From NCBI GenBank assembly GCA_027035765.1, contig JALVUD010000036.1:1-64000 (forward strand): DNA of 64,000 nt. The letters run 5' to 3'. The notes below the pieces were generated by a model. It was not told the origin of the DNA. It saw nothing but the letters and a program-made list of their open reading frames with translations, and did not search any database. Shown here one piece after another: positions 11,609 through 58,955 of the stretch. This DNA is from Campylobacteraceae bacterium (GTDB lineage: Bacteria; Campylobacterota; Campylobacteria; Campylobacterales; Sulfurovaceae). The translations under genes and the position numbers were made by a program. Numbering within the stretch: the first letter of the stretch is position 1; every line of letters begins with the position of its first letter.

Positions 11609-11639
11609 AAAAAATCCTTTGGATTTTAGGCAGTGAGAT

Positions 11640-11748
11640 TCGCTACGCGAATCGGCATTGGGCATTGAGGCATTTGGAAAATATTACCAATGCCAGCGAA
11701 GCGCAATGCCTCAATGCCCAATTCCCGGATTTGACTTTTGTCAAATCC
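11640..11748. repeat. Heptamer/hairpin element, family alpha copy 1 (GGCATTG / CAATGCC arms)
   Basis: ggcattg ggcattg aggcattt ... caatgcc agcgaagcg caatgcct caatgccc, with GGATTTGAC-tttt-GTCAAATCC hairpin over the narK stop. Confidence 0.8.
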
Positions 11749-15054: not shown

Positions 15055-15172
15055 AGGCATTTGGCATTTGGGCATTACGCTTCGCTGGCATTGAGTGATA
15101 ATTTTACAAAATGCCCATTGCCCAATGCCGATCCGCAAAGCGGATCTCGATGCCCAAGAAACAATTGCCTAA
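15055..15172. repeat. Heptamer/hairpin element, family alpha copy 2
   Basis: ggcattt ggcattt gggcatt acgcttcgct ggcattg ... aatgccc attgccc aatgccg ATCCGCaaaGCGGAT. Confidence 0.8.
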
Positions 15173-34921: not shown

Positions 34922-35062
34922 GAATCGAGCTTCTCGAAAAACCGAATCGATTTGAACCCGTCATCCTGAACTCGATTCAGGATCCATAGCCGCGTGAGCC
35001 TTTGAAGCCCCGGGTTCCGGATCCGGTCCGGAATGACGATGGTTTTTCGAGGCGTTCGATTC
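34922..35062. repeat. Nested palindromic element (REP-like core) with locus-specific inverted arms
   Basis: Arms GAATCGAGCTTCTCGAAAAACC / GGTTTTTCGAGGCGTTCGATTC (19/22 complementary) around CGTCATCCTGAAC..TTCAGGATCC ... TTCCGGATCCGGTCCGGAATGACG. Confidence 0.85.
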
Positions 35063-38444: not shown

Positions 38445-38577
38445 TGAGTGCTCTGAAAAACAACCGTCATTCCGGGCTTGACCCGGAATCCAGGGCTTGG
38501 AATCCCCATTAAACCATGGATCCTGAATCGAGTTCAGGATGACGCAAGCGTAACTCTCGTGTTTTTCAGAGCACTCA
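38445..38577. repeat. Nested palindromic element, perfect 17 bp terminal inverted repeats around REP-like core
   Basis: TGAGTGCTCTGAAAAAC ... GTTTTTCAGAGCACTCA; core CGTCATTCCGGGCTTGACCCGGAATCC ... GGATCCTGAATCGAGTTCAGGATGACG. Confidence 0.9.
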
Positions 38578-38601
38578 AATCACAAAAGCAGGAGCAGTTG
38601 A

Positions 38602-39048
38602 ATGAAAAAGAGTATGAAGATTCTGTCGGGGGTGGTCCTCCTGGCGGTGGCCATCCAGTTTGTCCCCTACGGTCGGGATCACTACAATCCCCCTGTGGTC
38701 AAAGAACCCCAATGGGATTCACCAAAGACCAAAGCCCTTTTTGCACGGGCCTGTGCCGATTGCCACAGCAACCACACCCGCTGGCCGGCCTATGCGAACG
38801 TAGCTCCCGTTTCCTGGCTGGTGACCCATGACGTGAACGAGGGGCGGGAACACTTCAACGTCTCGCTCTGGGGTGTGCAGGAGAAGAACAAAGGGGATGA
38901 AGCGGCCAAGGAGTTGAAAGAGGGAGAGATGCCTCCGGCGATCTATACCGTGATGCATCCGGAGGCACGGCTTAGCGATGCCGAAAGAAAGGCATTGATC
39001 GAAGGGCTCCAGAAAACTTTTGGTTCTAAAGAGTTGAAAGACGAGTAG
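38602..39048 (+). CDS. c-type heme-binding domain protein
   Basis: N-terminal signal/TM; CADCHSNHTRWP heme motif; GEMPPAIYTVMHPEARLSDAER. Confidence 0.85.
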   Translation: MKKSMKILSGVVLLAVAIQFVPYGRDHYNPPVVKEPQWDSPKTKALFARACADCHSNHTRWPAYANVAPVSWLVTHDVNEGREHFNVSLWGVQEKNKGDEAAKELKEGEMPPAIYTVMHPEARLSDAERKALIEGLQKTFGSKELKDE

Positions 39049-39111
39049 CGTGGGATTGCCATCCCACGGGCCAGTTGAGATATCGATCCCTTTCTGTTTA
39101 TCTCTTCATTT

Positions 39112-39175
39112 CTTTTTCTTTGTTTCGCGACAAAGAAAAAGGAAACGAAGCAAAGAAAAAGAAAACGCGAAGGAC
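39112..39175. repeat. A/T-rich hairpin with repeated CAAAGAAAAAG
   Basis: CTTTTTCTTTGT-ttcgcg-ACAAAGAAAAAG 12 bp stem, then second CAAAGAAAAAG. Confidence 0.7.
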
Positions 39176-39231
39176 TGACGTCACTTTGGATGTGCCATTC
39201 ACTATGCTCTTTGAAAGCCGAGTATGGATTT

Positions 39232-39312
39232 CCTCATCCTGAACTTAGTTCAGGATAGACAGCGGGACTGATCATCCAAGCCCTGGATTCCGAATCAAGT
39301 CTGGAATGACGA
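39232..39312. repeat. REP-like composite palindrome, third copy
   Basis: CATCCTGAACTTAGTTCAGGAT ... CCTGGATTCCGAATCAAGTCTGGAATGACG. Confidence 0.8.
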
Positions 39313-39332
39313 TCGTTTGTCAGAGTGATTTT

Positions 39333-53243: not shown

Positions 53244-53250
53244 CTTTTTC

Positions 53251-53470
53251 CTCCCGTTGGGAGGGGTAACTAGTAACTAGTAACGAGTAACTAGTAATTT
53301 TTGTATGCGTTGCTATGCAACGCTTTTTTTTATGAGGGTGAGAGGGTGAGAAGGTGAGAGGGTGAGAAGGTTTTTGTCTTGTACCTTCCCACCTTCCCAC
53401 CAGCGCGAAGCGCGATCTCACCCTCTCACCAAGAACTCTGGTTACTAGTTTCTTGTTACTTGTTACTCGT
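53251..53470. repeat. Composite heptamer/octamer/hairpin element, family beta copy 1
   Basis: TAACTAG x4; GCGTTGC-tat-GCAACGC; GAGGGTGA x4; CCTTCCCACCTTCCCACC AGCGCGAAGCGCGAT CTCACCCTCTCACC; GTTACTAGTTTCTTGTTACTTGTTACTCG. Confidence 0.9.
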
Positions 53471-53483
53471 TTTCCGATAAATT

Positions 53484-54428
53484 TCATCCCCTTCTCCTCC
53501 ACCGATCAAAAAGCGAAACGATCCCTTTCGGCATGAAGATCATCACTCCGATGATGATGGCACCGTAGATGAGGGTCTGGTAGTCTTCGAAGGAAGTCAG
53601 AAGCTGGGGGAGCAGCGTCAGGATCACCGCACCGATGACGGCACCATAGAGACGCCCCATCCCGCCCAGGACCACCATAACCACCAGTTCGATGGAACGG
53701 TTGAATCCCGCCTCCTGAGGAGAGATGAACCCGGAGAAAAAAGCGTAAAGACTGCCTGCCAATGCAGCGACGACCACGGAGATGACGAAGACCAGACTCT
53801 TGTAGCGGGCCACGTTGACCCCGACGCTGGCCGGGGCGCGTTCCGAGTCGTGAAGGCTGCGGAGGATCCGTCCCAAAGGGGACTCGATGAGGTTCTGGGC
53901 CAGCCAGAGGAGGACCAACAGGTGCAGGGCCGCCAGGAGATACCACTCCCAGCTCTCAGTAAAGGTGTGGCCGAAAAGGGAAAAGCTCTCCACACTCATC
54001 CCGTCGGTTCCGCCGGTGAGCTCCTCTTCGTTGTTGAGGATGATGGAGACGATGATCCCCACCCCCAGGGTCGCCATGGCCAGATAGTGGCCCCGCAGCC
54101 TCAGGATCGGCCGGGCGAGCCCGTAGGCCAGGAGTGCCATAATCCCCAGGCTGACGGCGATGGAGAAGAGCGGCGCCAGGCCGTAGCGTCCCGTCAGGAT
54201 GGCGGCGATGTAGCCGCCCAGCCCGGCGAAGGCCCCGTGGGCCAGGCTGATCTGCCCCGCATAACCCATCAGTAGATTGAGCCCTACGGCGATCATGGCG
54301 TTGAAAAGGGCGAGGATGGCGATCTCGTAATAGAAGTCGTTACTGAGCATCCACGGCACAAGGGCCAGGATCAGGGCGGTCACTCCCAGGGCGGGGCGCA
54401 GGTTCCAGCGTCGGGCCAGTGCTCTCAT
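53484..54428 (-). CDS. livM: Branched-chain amino acid ABC transporter permease
   Basis: NLLMGYAGQISLAHGAFAGLGGYIAA; polytopic. Confidence 0.92.
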   Translation of the reverse strand: MRALARRWNLRPALGVTALILALVPWMLSNDFYYEIAILALFNAMIAVGLNLLMGYAGQISLAHGAFAGLGGYIAAILTGRYGLAPLFSIAVSLGIMALLAYGLARPILRLRGHYLAMATLGVGIIVSIILNNEEELTGGTDGMSVESFSLFGHTFTESWEWYLLAALHLLVLLWLAQNLIESPLGRILRSLHDSERAPASVGVNVARYKSLVFVISVVVAALAGSLYAFFSGFISPQEAGFNRSIELVVMVVLGGMGRLYGAVIGAVILTLLPQLLTSFEDYQTLIYGAIIIGVMIFMPKGIVSLFDRWRRRG

Positions 54429-55294
54429 ACCCGTTGGACTCCCCGATGGCTGAAGAGGCCGCCGGGCCGGAAAAAGAGGATCAGAAGCATGATGACGAAG
54501 GCGACGGCGTCTTTGTACTCCGAAGAGAGATAGCCCGCCACCAACGCCTCCATGATCCCCAGGATCAATCCCCCCGCGACGGCACCGAAAGGATTGGAGA
54601 GCCCGCCGGTGATCGCCGCGGCAAATCCCTTGAGCCCCAGCATGATCCCCACTTCGTAGTTGGTGGAGGTGATGGGTGTGAGGAGGATGCCTCCCACGGA
54701 GGCGATGGCGGCGGCCAGGGAGAAGCTGAGGACCCAGATCTTTTTGAGGCTGATGCCCATGAGCCTGGCGGCGTCGGGGTCGAGGGAGACGGCGATCATC
54801 GCTTTGCCGGTGCGGGTCCGGCGAAAGAAAAACCAGAGCCCCGCTACGATGAGCACCGAAGCGGCCATCACCAGCAGTGCCTGATAGCTGAGCGTCGCCC
54901 CCAGGATCGTCAGATGCCCCTCACCGAGCAGGGGAGGCAGGGTATGAAGCTCCTTGTCGAAGACCACCTCCGCTGCGCCTCGCAGAAAGATGGCGTAGCC
55001 CAGGGTGAGGATGATCAGGGATTCCTGGGAGCTGTCCCGGGAGAGATCGGTGAGTTTCCAGAGCAGTACCCCAAGCAGTGCCGTCAGCCCGATCGCCAGG
55101 AGATAGGCGGGCAGATAGGGAATGCCTCCCGCCAGCAGAAAGACCATGATCATCCCCCCGGCCATGACGAACTCCCCCTGGGCGAAGTTGATGATCCCGC
55201 TGGCGTTGTAGATGACGGTAAAGCCCATCCCAACCAGGGCATAGACGAAACCGACAGTCAGACCGGTGAGGAGAAAGGCGAAAAGTTCGGTCAT
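54425..55294 (-). CDS. livH: Branched-chain amino acid ABC transporter permease
   Basis: MTELFAFLLTGLTVGFVYALVGMGFTVIYNASGIINFAQGEFVM. Confidence 0.93.
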   Translation of the reverse strand: MTELFAFLLTGLTVGFVYALVGMGFTVIYNASGIINFAQGEFVMAGGMIMVFLLAGGIPYLPAYLLAIGLTALLGVLLWKLTDLSRDSSQESLIILTLGYAIFLRGAAEVVFDKELHTLPPLLGEGHLTILGATLSYQALLVMAASVLIVAGLWFFFRRTRTGKAMIAVSLDPDAARLMGISLKKIWVLSFSLAAAIASVGGILLTPITSTNYEVGIMLGLKGFAAAITGGLSNPFGAVAGGLILGIMEALVAGYLSSEYKDAVAFVIMLLILFFRPGGLFSHRGVQRV

Positions 55295-55318
55295 TTTTCG
55301 CCCCCAGGAGCGAAAAAC

Positions 55319-55495
55319 GAGTGAGGAGTGGGGAGTGAGGAGTGAGACAGGAATTTCTGGTGAGAAAGTGAGAAGGTGAGAAGGTGAGAAGGGTTCTGTT
55401 TTATACCTCCCCACCTTCCTACCAGCGTGAAGCGCGATCTCACCCTCTCACCCTCTCCCAATCCACCAATACCCCAATATGCCAATAACATAACG
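55319..55495. repeat. Composite heptamer/octamer/hairpin element, family beta copy 2
   Basis: GAGTGAG/GAGTGGG x4; GTGAGAAG x4; CACCTTCCTACC AGCGTGAAGCGCGAT CTCACCCTCTCACCC; CCAAT-rich arm. Confidence 0.9.
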
Positions 55496-55500
55496 TTCAG

Positions 55501-56643
55501 TTATTCCGCCAATTTCCAATCGCCGTTTTTAATCTGCAGCATCACCAGACCCGATTTGGTGTCCAGTCCCAGATGGTCGGTGGGGCTCATATTGACCACC
55601 CCGTCGATGCCGACGAAATTGTGCAGGCTCTCCAGGCCGTCCCGGATGGCCGCGGGAGAGGTCCCTTTGCGTTTGACGGCGTCGGCGATGGCGTACAGGG
55701 AGTCGTAGGCGTGGCCTCCGAAGCTGGCCACGGGAGTGTGGAAGGTCTTTTCATACTCGTTCTTGTAGGCCAGGCAGACCTTTTTGACCGGGTTGGTGTC
55801 GGGGAGCTTGGCGGCCACCACGACCGGCGGAGAAACCACATAGACCCCTTCGGCGGCATCACCGGCGATCTCGATATATTTTTTGGAAGCGACACCATGA
55901 GATTCATAGAGGGGCATTTTGAGTCCCAGTTGCTTGAAGTTCTTGGTCACAATGGCAGGCCCCTGACCGAATCCGGGGTTGAGGACCGCCTGGACACCGG
56001 GAGTGTTTTTGATCTTGAGCAGCTGGGCGCTCATGTCGGTATCCTTCTTGCCGTAGGTTTCATCGGCGAGGATATCGATCCCCATATCCTTGGCCACCAT
56101 CTTGCACTGTTTGCGCATCGACTTGCCGAAGCCGCCGCTGCCCGAGAGCATGGCGATCTTGGAGATCTGATGGGCTTTCATGTGTTCCATGATCTTTTGA
56201 CAGGCCATCCGGTCGGTGGCGACGATCTTGAAGACCCATTTTTTGACCGGATCGATGATGGGAACCCCACCGGCCATGGAGAGCATGGGGATCTTCGATT
56301 TCTGGATCAACGGGATGACGGCCATGGTCTCTCCCGTGGTGGAGGGGCCGATGATGGCGGCGACCTTGTCTTTGTAGAGAAGCCGCTTGGCGAAGGTGAC
56401 CGCCTTCTTGGGATTGGCGCCGGTATCGTAGGCGATCAGCTCCAGCTTGCGGCCCGCGACACCGCCTGTATCGTTGATCTTTTCGACGTAATGCCGAAGT
56501 GTTTTGAGCTCCGGATCTCCGATGAACGAAGCCGGTCCGGTGGCGGAGACCAGGGCCCCGATCCGAATCGGCTCCTCTGCCAGAACGGACCCGCTCCAGA
56601 ACAGGGCGACAATGGCCAGCATTTTCAGCAACATCGATTTCAT
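55501..56643 (-). CDS. livK: Amino-acid ABC transporter substrate-binding protein
   Basis: Signal peptide; PIRIGALVSATGPASFIGDPELKTLRHYVEKIND; Peripla_BP_6-like. Confidence 0.9.
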   Translation of the reverse strand: MKSMLLKMLAIVALFWSGSVLAEEPIRIGALVSATGPASFIGDPELKTLRHYVEKINDTGGVAGRKLELIAYDTGANPKKAVTFAKRLLYKDKVAAIIGPSTTGETMAVIPLIQKSKIPMLSMAGGVPIIDPVKKWVFKIVATDRMACQKIMEHMKAHQISKIAMLSGSGGFGKSMRKQCKMVAKDMGIDILADETYGKKDTDMSAQLLKIKNTPGVQAVLNPGFGQGPAIVTKNFKQLGLKMPLYESHGVASKKYIEIAGDAAEGVYVVSPPVVVAAKLPDTNPVKKVCLAYKNEYEKTFHTPVASFGGHAYDSLYAIADAVKRKGTSPAAIRDGLESLHNFVGIDGVVNMSPTDHLGLDTKSGLVMLQIKNGDWKLAE

Positions 56644-56888
56644 TTTTTCTCCTCCTTGAGCGATGGTGGCTCTATTATAGCCTCCGGCCCTAAGATTGAC
56701 GATGATCCGTGTCAATCGGCAAAAGAAAATAGTGAATTTTCTACATTTATACGATGAAAAATTCAACAACAATTATCAGATGGAACTATAAAAATGCTTT
56801 GATGTATAACTATTGTAATGATTAAGAGAATTGTGAGTAGAATGGAACGGGTTCATCGCAACAGTAGCGAATCGAAGAAGGAGGAGTG

Positions 56889-58727
56889 ATGAAAGAGACC
56901 CTGATGGGCAACGATGCTATCGCCTGGGGGCTGATCCACGCCGATGTGGAGATGGTCTCGGGCTATCCCGGGACCCCTTCCAGCGAGATCCTTGGGATGG
57001 TACAGAAGATCAAATCGAAGCTGAAACTGCCGGTCTACGCCGAGTGGGCCACCAACGAAAAGGTGGGCTTCGAGGTGGCCTACGCCGGGGCCATCGCCGG
57101 CAAACGGACAGCCGCGACGATGAAGCAGGTGGGCCTCAACGTCGCCAGCGACGCGTTGATGTCGGCGGCCTATATCGGAAATAGAGGGGGATTCCTCCTC
57201 ATCGCCGCCGACGATCCGGGCTTCCACTCCTCCCAGACGGAGCAGGACAGCCGGGTCTTCGCCAAATTCGCCCGGATCCCGGTGCTGGATCCCTCCACGC
57301 CCCAGGATGCCTACGATATGACCCGCTACGGTGTCGAACTCTCCGAACGCTTCGAGACGCCGGTGATGCTGCGTCCCGTGATGCGGGTCTGCCACGCCCG
57401 GGAGATCATCGAGATGGAGGATGCCACTGACTTCCATCCCAAAGAGGGGAAATTCGTCCGCAACATCCCCCGCTGGGCGGCGGTCCCCCGGGACGGTCGG
57501 CTGCAGCAGGGCTATGAAGCCCTCGATCGCATCGAAGCGATCGCCGCCTACAACTGGGCAGAGCACCTCAAGCCGCGTTTCGATGCACTGGAGGGGAAAA
57601 GTGACGTTCTGATCCTCGCTTCCGGGACCGGATACGCCTTTACCCGGGAGGCGATGGAGGAGCTGGAGGTCGAGGCCGATCTGGTCAAAGTGGAGATGCC
57701 CTATCCCCTGCCGGTAGAGGAGATCCGCAAACGCTTCGAAGCCTACGAGAAGGTTCTGGTGGTCGAAGAGCCCTATCCCTGTATCGAAGAGCAGGTGATG
57801 GACCCGGCCAAGGTTCACGGGCGCCTCGACAAGACGATGAACCGCATCGACGAGATGAAAAAGGAGCATATCCTCGAGGCGTTTAAAAAGCTGGGCCTTT
57901 ATGAAGGGAAGAACATCTACGCCCCCAAACTCACTTTCAGCATCGACGTGCCCCCGCGTCCGCCGGCGCTCTGCCCGGGATGTCCCCACCGGGATATCTA
58001 CTACGCCATCATGAAGGTCTTCAAAAAGAGCAAATCGATCTACCCCTCCGATATCGGCTGCTACACCCTGGCCCTGGCCCAGGGAGCCATCGATACGATC
58101 CTCTGTATGGGGGCCAGTGTCTCCATGGCCAGCGGTCTGAGCCTGGCCGATCCGAGCAAAACGGTGGTGGCCACCATCGGGGACGGGACCTTCTTTCACT
58201 CCGGGATCCCGCCGCTGATCAATGCCGTCTACCAGGGGCACCGTTTCATCCTGGTGATCCTGGACAACTCCACCATCGCCATGACGGGACGTCAGGTGAC
58301 TCCCGAGCGTTTCAACCAGACCCTGGATATCGGCCGGATCGTCGAGGGGATGGGGATCAAGTGTTACGAGCACACCTACTCCCACGAGATGCACAAAAAC
58401 ATCGACTTTTTCAAGGGGATCAAGAAGATCTTCGAATCGGAGGAGCATCAGGGACCCCTGGTGGTGCGGGTGCGGCAGTTCTGTATCCTGGACAACGAAC
58501 GCAAGGATGACTGGGTCCCCGGAGAATACGCCGTGGTCGATCCCGAACTCTGCGTCGCCTGCGATCAGTGCACCACCGTCTACAAATGCCCCCCCATGGC
58601 CTACAATGCCGAAGGAAAGATCGAGATCGACCCCTTCCTCTGCGCCGGCTGCGGAGGGTGTCTGGAGATCGTCTGCCCGACCGATGCGTTCAAGCTGGAT
58701 GAAGAGAAGAGTGGAGGAAAACAATGA
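56889..58727 (+). CDS. iorA: Indolepyruvate ferredoxin oxidoreductase alpha subunit
   Basis: MGNDAIAWGLIHADVEMVSGYPGTPSSEIL; TPP domain CPGCPHRDIYYAI, GDGTFFHSG; C-terminal 2[4Fe-4S]. Confidence 0.93.
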   Translation: MKETLMGNDAIAWGLIHADVEMVSGYPGTPSSEILGMVQKIKSKLKLPVYAEWATNEKVGFEVAYAGAIAGKRTAATMKQVGLNVASDALMSAAYIGNRGGFLLIAADDPGFHSSQTEQDSRVFAKFARIPVLDPSTPQDAYDMTRYGVELSERFETPVMLRPVMRVCHAREIIEMEDATDFHPKEGKFVRNIPRWAAVPRDGRLQQGYEALDRIEAIAAYNWAEHLKPRFDALEGKSDVLILASGTGYAFTREAMEELEVEADLVKVEMPYPLPVEEIRKRFEAYEKVLVVEEPYPCIEEQVMDPAKVHGRLDKTMNRIDEMKKEHILEAFKKLGLYEGKNIYAPKLTFSIDVPPRPPALCPGCPHRDIYYAIMKVFKKSKSIYPSDIGCYTLALAQGAIDTILCMGASVSMASGLSLADPSKTVVATIGDGTFFHSGIPPLINAVYQGHRFILVILDNSTIAMTGRQVTPERFNQTLDIGRIVEGMGIKCYEHTYSHEMHKNIDFFKGIKKIFESEEHQGPLVVRVRQFCILDNERKDDWVPGEYAVVDPELCVACDQCTTVYKCPPMAYNAEGKIEIDPFLCAGCGGCLEIVCPTDAFKLDEEKSGGKQ

Positions 58728-58729
58728 GT

Positions 58730-58955
58730 TGCAAGCACGGCCCTTCGGGCCTCAAGTCGCAAGTCGCAAGTGGTGTCGCCTTCGGCGACGTTATTAGTTA
58801 TTGGTGTATTGGTGTATTGGGAGAAGGTAGGAGGGTGAGATCGCGCTTTGCGCTGGTGGGAAGGTGGGAAGTTTTGAGACAAAAACCTTCTTACCTTCTT
58901 ACCTTCTTACCTTCTCACCAGAAATTTATTTCTCATTCCTCCCAAAGGGAGGTTG
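58730..58955. repeat. Composite heptamer/octamer/hairpin element, family beta copy 3
   Basis: GGCCC-ttc-GGGCC; AAGTCGC x2.5; GTCGCC-ttc-GGCGAC; GTGTATTG x2; GAGATCGCGCTTTGCGCTGGTGGGAAGGTGGGAAG; CCTTCTTA x4. Confidence 0.9.

Follow-up and report, generated by a model that had tools for sequence, protein, structure and literature searches.

A 97-nt inverted repeat in co-directional operon spacers of a probable Nitratifractor genome

Three beta elements at the liv–ior locus

The window, by which we mean the whole 64,000-nt stretch of DNA analysed here, is part of contig 36 of a draft genome (2.03 Mb, 47 contigs) whose host is probably a member of Nitratifractor (Campylobacterota). Three spacers in this region, among the minus-strand genes livF, livG, livM, livH and livK and the plus-strand genes iorA and iorB, contain copies of a common element, beta: copy 1 (53336–53432, minus strand) between livM and livG, copy 2 (55358–55454, minus strand) between livK and livH, and copy 3 (58824–58920, plus strand) between iorA and iorB. 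The ends of these copies were set by a covariance model, with respective R1 scores of 104.4 bits (E 6.9e-27), 95.9 bits and 97.9 bits. In a repeat search of the window, the copies at 53.3 and 55.4 kb form a 94-nt direct repeat with 89% identity, and the copy at 58.8 kb is an inverted repeat of the other two (94 nt at 87%, and 143 nt at 84%). The homology of three elements reported in a preliminary description of this DNA is therefore borne out by these repeats of 94–143 nt; the consensus sequence given there is correct, as are the neighbours it assigned, and all three cores indeed read in the sense of the adjacent liv or ior genes.

Each copy is accompanied by further repeat modules. Directly downstream of copy 1 lies the M3 module (53307–53323, minus strand), a GCGTTGC-ATA-GCAACGC stem followed by ATACAAAAA, which when read on the plus strand, antisense to liv, resembles an intrinsic terminator with a T8 tail. 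A (TTACTAG)n heptad array (approximately 53250–53300, minus strand) is also found downstream of this copy, and an array of the GTAACAA/GTAACTA type (approximately 53440–53475, minus strand) upstream of it. Copy 2 has a (CTCACTC)n array downstream (approximately 55310–55350, minus strand), while the region upstream of copy 3 (58728–58823, plus strand) holds CAAGTCG heptads, GGCCCTTCGGGCC and GTCGCCTTCGGCGAC hairpins, and TATTGGTG units. Other inverted and direct repeats of the window occur at 11619–11725, 15056–15164, 34959–35048 and 38451–39325, including GGCATTG heptads with CGCTTCGCT hairpins and elements of the GTCATTCCGG/CCTGAATC type.

Anatomy and predicted fold

As read from an alignment of 14 copies, which starts with GGTSAGA and ends with CTCACC, beta is a 97-nt inverted repeat made up of 8-nt units: its left arm, of the GGTGAGAA type, includes a short GCGC-TTY-GCGC side hairpin and is followed by a loop and a complementary TTCTCACC right arm, so that the two arms can pair into one long hairpin. 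Very stable folds are predicted for all three window copies, at −63.7 kcal/mol (z −9.7) for copy 1, −52.5 kcal/mol (z −6.7) for copy 2 and −50.9 kcal/mol (z −6.6) for copy 3. A role as an intrinsic terminator was considered and rejected, as some copies are followed by a T run but many lack one, the three window copies among them. The window gave no Rfam match at the gathering score.

Modules sharing the spacers with beta

Beta-bearing spacers are full of period-7 arrays, period 8 being the only other one to reach threshold, and none of 402 coding controls contained such period arrays. Many of the heptad units recur. Individual operon spacers hold several different period-7 arrays, often of three to five copies (TTCCTCA, ATTCACC, CTTCCAT, TTACTAG, GTCGTTT, CAGTCGG, CAAGTCG and others), and spacers rich in them are found in L072–L083, L104–L123 and the window (for example L075:12925–13270 and L081:17159–17582). 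Pooled over an unbiased 464 kb sample, 28 heptad arrays are sense and 28 antisense, so a sense orientation is not dictated by the spacers themselves; the same count rules out a single orientation for each heptad family. GTCGTTT, CAGTCGG, CAAGTCG and GTGCTAC are nevertheless almost always sense, at 14:0 outside beta spacers, although counts within one spacer are not independent.

Two hairpin families complete the set. M3, of the general form GCGTTGC-NNN-GCAACGC followed by ACCGAAA, often follows beta, and where both sides of its stem have changed in copies from the genus, ten changes preserve Watson-Crick pairing and one does not. The second family, gamma (GGGGGCAGGGCTTTGGCCCTGCATGCGGGACTGAAGTCCCGCCTCC), has been observed in the slot held in the window by beta (L132:7428–7750, L088:1697–2028, L130:14082–14395).

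Placement and orientation across the genome

A covariance model search of the genome returned 15 strong copies of beta (87–107 bits, all with E below 1e-21, which places the match far outside chance) and one weaker relative. The model was built from 14 of the 15, which match it by construction; neither their resemblance to one another nor their inverted-repeat fold depends on it, however. Among the first 16 pattern matches, two (the coding stretch L008 and the unrelated L016) were rejected as copies. With genes called by a script that took its codon usage from the window, in place of an annotation, every one of the 15 strong copies lies between co-directional genes. Such spacers make up 63% of intergenic bases in the 464 kb sample, giving p of about 0.001 for this placement, which is compatible with co-transcription or with exclusion from promoter and terminator spacers.

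Orientation is a weaker regularity than placement, which the preliminary description did not point out. The preliminary description had the core always in the mRNA sense and called for a genome-wide count of orientations, anticipating a ratio near 50:50 if its view were wrong. That count gives 12 sense and 3 antisense copies (two-sided p 0.035), an excess of sense that is neither exclusive nor an even split, and over 18 distinct sites in the genus the ratio is 13:5 (p 0.10).

Distribution among genomes

Across 84,980 species genomes the exact core pattern was found in 11 stretches, every one from Nitratifractor or Campylobacteraceae metagenome-assembled genomes, a result on which the genus assignment above is based. 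Six of 12 relatives in the genus are beta-positive. A search of 298 sampled genomes of the class at E 1e-8 scored only the genome itself and G039, which belongs to a different family of the order and has a beta-like octad hairpin at L101:9786–9881 and L102:9747–9866; this look-alike may reflect homology or convergence. The strong beta family is limited to Nitratifractor and patchy within it, and one other genus has a weak look-alike. The exact core was absent from viral contigs, and plasmids gave no match. As for the accompanying modules, in a sample of 150 the TTCCTCA array too was found within the genus only, and the closed genome of a beta-free member (G011) carries a (TTCCTCA)n array of about 20 units (C1:99210–99358).

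Orthologous spacers and kinship of the copies

Comparison of orthologous spacers reveals that different module sets fill the same slot in relatives, as seen for the livM–livG, livK–livH, iorA–iorB and hemN spacers, and that in the liv and ior spacers heptad modules have been exchanged right up to the edge of beta. The site of copy 1 is also occupied in G004 and G008, with 96% identity of the element. In contrast, the other two sites hold gamma or neither module in the compared relatives, gamma being present in the livK–livH spacer of G004, G006 and G008 and in the iorA–iorB spacer of G006, G008 and G009. The livM–livG spacer of G008 is interrupted beside beta by an apparent insertion sequence that coincides with the contig ends (L130:16186–16358, L098:1–125).

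Where a copy is shared it is well kept. Shared copies are mostly 92–100% identical, with a few at 78–85%, bearing in mind that orthologues were found through the covariance model, which favours well-kept copies; third positions of the flanking genes at identical amino acids are 50–94% identical, and beta is usually better conserved than the remainder of its spacer. Either selection acting on beta or a recent exchange at the site may account for this conservation.

Copies on the same contig are also closer kin, with a mean identity of 0.874 versus 0.785 (p 6e-5), a comparison that, like the local copying it suggests, relies on eight same-contig pairs. The three window copies form a single clade, and on contig 27 two antisense copies are closely related despite lying on opposite strands; in both cases likeness persists where strand and gene direction flip together. 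Orientation counts are consequently not independent, and the three-of-three sense arrangement that had drawn attention to the locus, while true of the trio, does not represent three separate events. Since the sites of copies 2 and 3 hold gamma or neither module elsewhere and copy 1 is shared, the comparison points to copy 1, or an element closely related to it, as the source of copies 2 and 3.

How beta may have spread

Homology of the copies, their predicted fold, co-directional restriction, patchiness, module differences, conservation of shared copies and local similarity are directly established; what holds up as regular is that beta lies between co-directional genes and that operon spacers exchange modules. 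Movement of beta, its transcription and any effect on expression are, by contrast, putative. The explanation we prefer, and to which we give an even chance, is that beta is a genus-specific non-autonomous hairpin repeat that is copied over short range, with its polarity kept, from one repeat-filled operon spacer to another. In its favour are the co-directional setting of all 15 strong copies, the patchy presence in the genus, the varied contents of orthologous liv and ior spacers, the greater likeness of same-contig copies, the conservation of shared copies and the strong folds. In this view beta occupies operon-internal spacers already filled with heptad arrays and M3 and gamma hairpins, and copies would pass chiefly between such spacers that lie near each other in the genome. 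The copying could proceed through recombination or template switching at modules that the spacers share, so that polarity relative to the genes would be kept. The absence from divergent and convergent spacers would most likely mean that insertions there are removed or never arrive, and within its operons beta would presumably be co-transcribed and form a strong intercistronic hairpin in the mRNA. Against local copying, no empty site with a clean junction was seen, the genome is a draft with script-called genes, and the high conservation of shared copies could instead reflect functional selection.

Such selection is central to a less probable alternative, in which beta is a selected intercistronic RNA hairpin that sets mRNA processing (e.g., by RNase III) or differential stability within the operon, hence its co-directional and mostly sense placement. 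The confinement to co-directional spacers, the 12:3 ratio, the very stable predicted fold, and the conservation of shared copies above synonymous sites and usually above the remaining spacer are all in its favour. However, the mRNA strand folds no better than its complement: when both were folded for each copy there was no systematic gain, with differences in both directions, and the ratio of G-U to A-C is 62:33 for the sense and 26:13 for the antisense copies, where the absolute G-U excess means little because the pair-union procedure favours G-U pairs on the core strand. The transcript-level selection raised in the preliminary description accordingly gains no support from strand-specific folding. 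In addition, a change on both sides is seen at only two of 30 consensus pairs, changes between copies being mostly transitions that keep a wobble pair; three copies are antisense, one of which (L073) is 100% identical to its counterpart in G006; and relatives have other modules in the same operon spacer.

Somewhat less probable again is that a transposase acting in trans moves beta in the manner of a MITE or REPIN, with random insertion followed by loss from spacers that hold promoters or terminators. The inverted-repeat layout fits this description, as do the size, the copy number and the patchy occurrence, yet a search of the genome gave a single Y1 (IS200/RAYT-type) gene (C20:28345), flanked by GGGGTCAGGTGATGC repeats unrelated to beta, and across the genus Y1 genes are missing from several beta-bearing genomes and present in beta-free ones, so that neither flanks nor distribution match RAYT-mediated spread. 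No target duplication or clean empty-site junction was recognised in the orthologous spacers compared, which differ by several modules so that no clean junction is readable, and orientation tends to be common within clades.

A more elaborate and rather unlikely reading sees in Nitratifractor operon spacers a series of slots that obey a fixed grammar (heptads upstream, beta or gamma as the central hairpin, the M3 stem, G-less heptads and a Shine-Dalgarno hairpin). Modules would be swapped between species by polarity-keeping conversion, and selection would maintain the central hairpin as an insulator or processing site in the intercistronic RNA. Finally, transcription-linked insertion, earlier offered as a reason for the sense orientation of the trio, draws on the co-directional setting of all copies and the 12 of 15 in sense, but is highly improbable given the existing antisense copies, the single clade formed by the trio and the even split of pooled heptads in the same kind of spacer.

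Relation to known repeats and significance

Beta shares traits with each of several known kinds of repeat and lacks a defining feature of both REPINs and STRRs; it is filed here with the dispersed palindromes of the REPIN/ERIC/STRR kind. REPs, which comprise the GTAG and CGTC super-families, are found mainly between unidirectional and convergent genes (PMC3733652), and REPINs are REP doublets that form hairpins (PMC3116915, where ERIC and NEMIS/Correia MITEs are also named). Like these, beta is a short, dispersed, extragenic inverted repeat that forms a hairpin and is patchy among relatives, but its hairpin ends without a GTAG or CGTC tag, its arms consist of 8-nt units, none was found between convergent genes, and the repeats flanking the Y1 gene do not match it. 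ERIC and the NEMIS/Correia MITEs are palindromic intergenic elements of about 100–150 bp, able to form long hairpins in mRNA. Beta resembles MITEs of this type in length (97 nt, against a criterion of about 100 to 400 bp), in its complementary arms and in being non-autonomous, as 97 nt are too short to code for a transposase. It differs, in a comparison by description, in sitting in multi-module spacers together with other repeats; no target duplication was seen, in spacers whose several module differences leave no clean junction to read.

Heptad arrays have precedents of their own, with TAACTGA heptads filling spacers of Beggiatoaceae and cyanobacteria (PMC4679880), GGGAATC and GGGGATT heptamers in Xanthomonas and Nostoc, lying in Xanthomonas mostly between aligned genes (PMC4692102), the STRR repeats of cyanobacteria, and four-copy heptads in Geobacter (PMC2700814). 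The arrays around beta qualify as STRR or heptamer repeats, being short, intergenic, built of 7-nt units, often four-copy, lineage-specific and variable between relatives, whereas beta itself has 8-nt units in inverted arms and a side hairpin; unlike the known heptamer systems, here a single spacer can combine many different heptads. The P6b stem of the Nostoc tRNA-Leu intron, with complementary heptads, side stem-loops and replacement of repeat classes (PMC4476775), is similar in having a stem of complementary short units, a side stem-loop and repeat classes replaced at a fixed place, but concerns one locus, a group I intron and 7-nt units, while beta is dispersed in operon spacers.

Dispersed palindromes and heptad arrays are already known from many bacteria. 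Here, one genus combines many repeat families in the same spacers, and its species differ at fixed places while the genes stay and one element is kept almost unchanged. This provides a single system in which to ask if such elements spread through transposition or through conversion from spacer to spacer, and whether RNA function or purging lies behind their restriction to co-directional genes.
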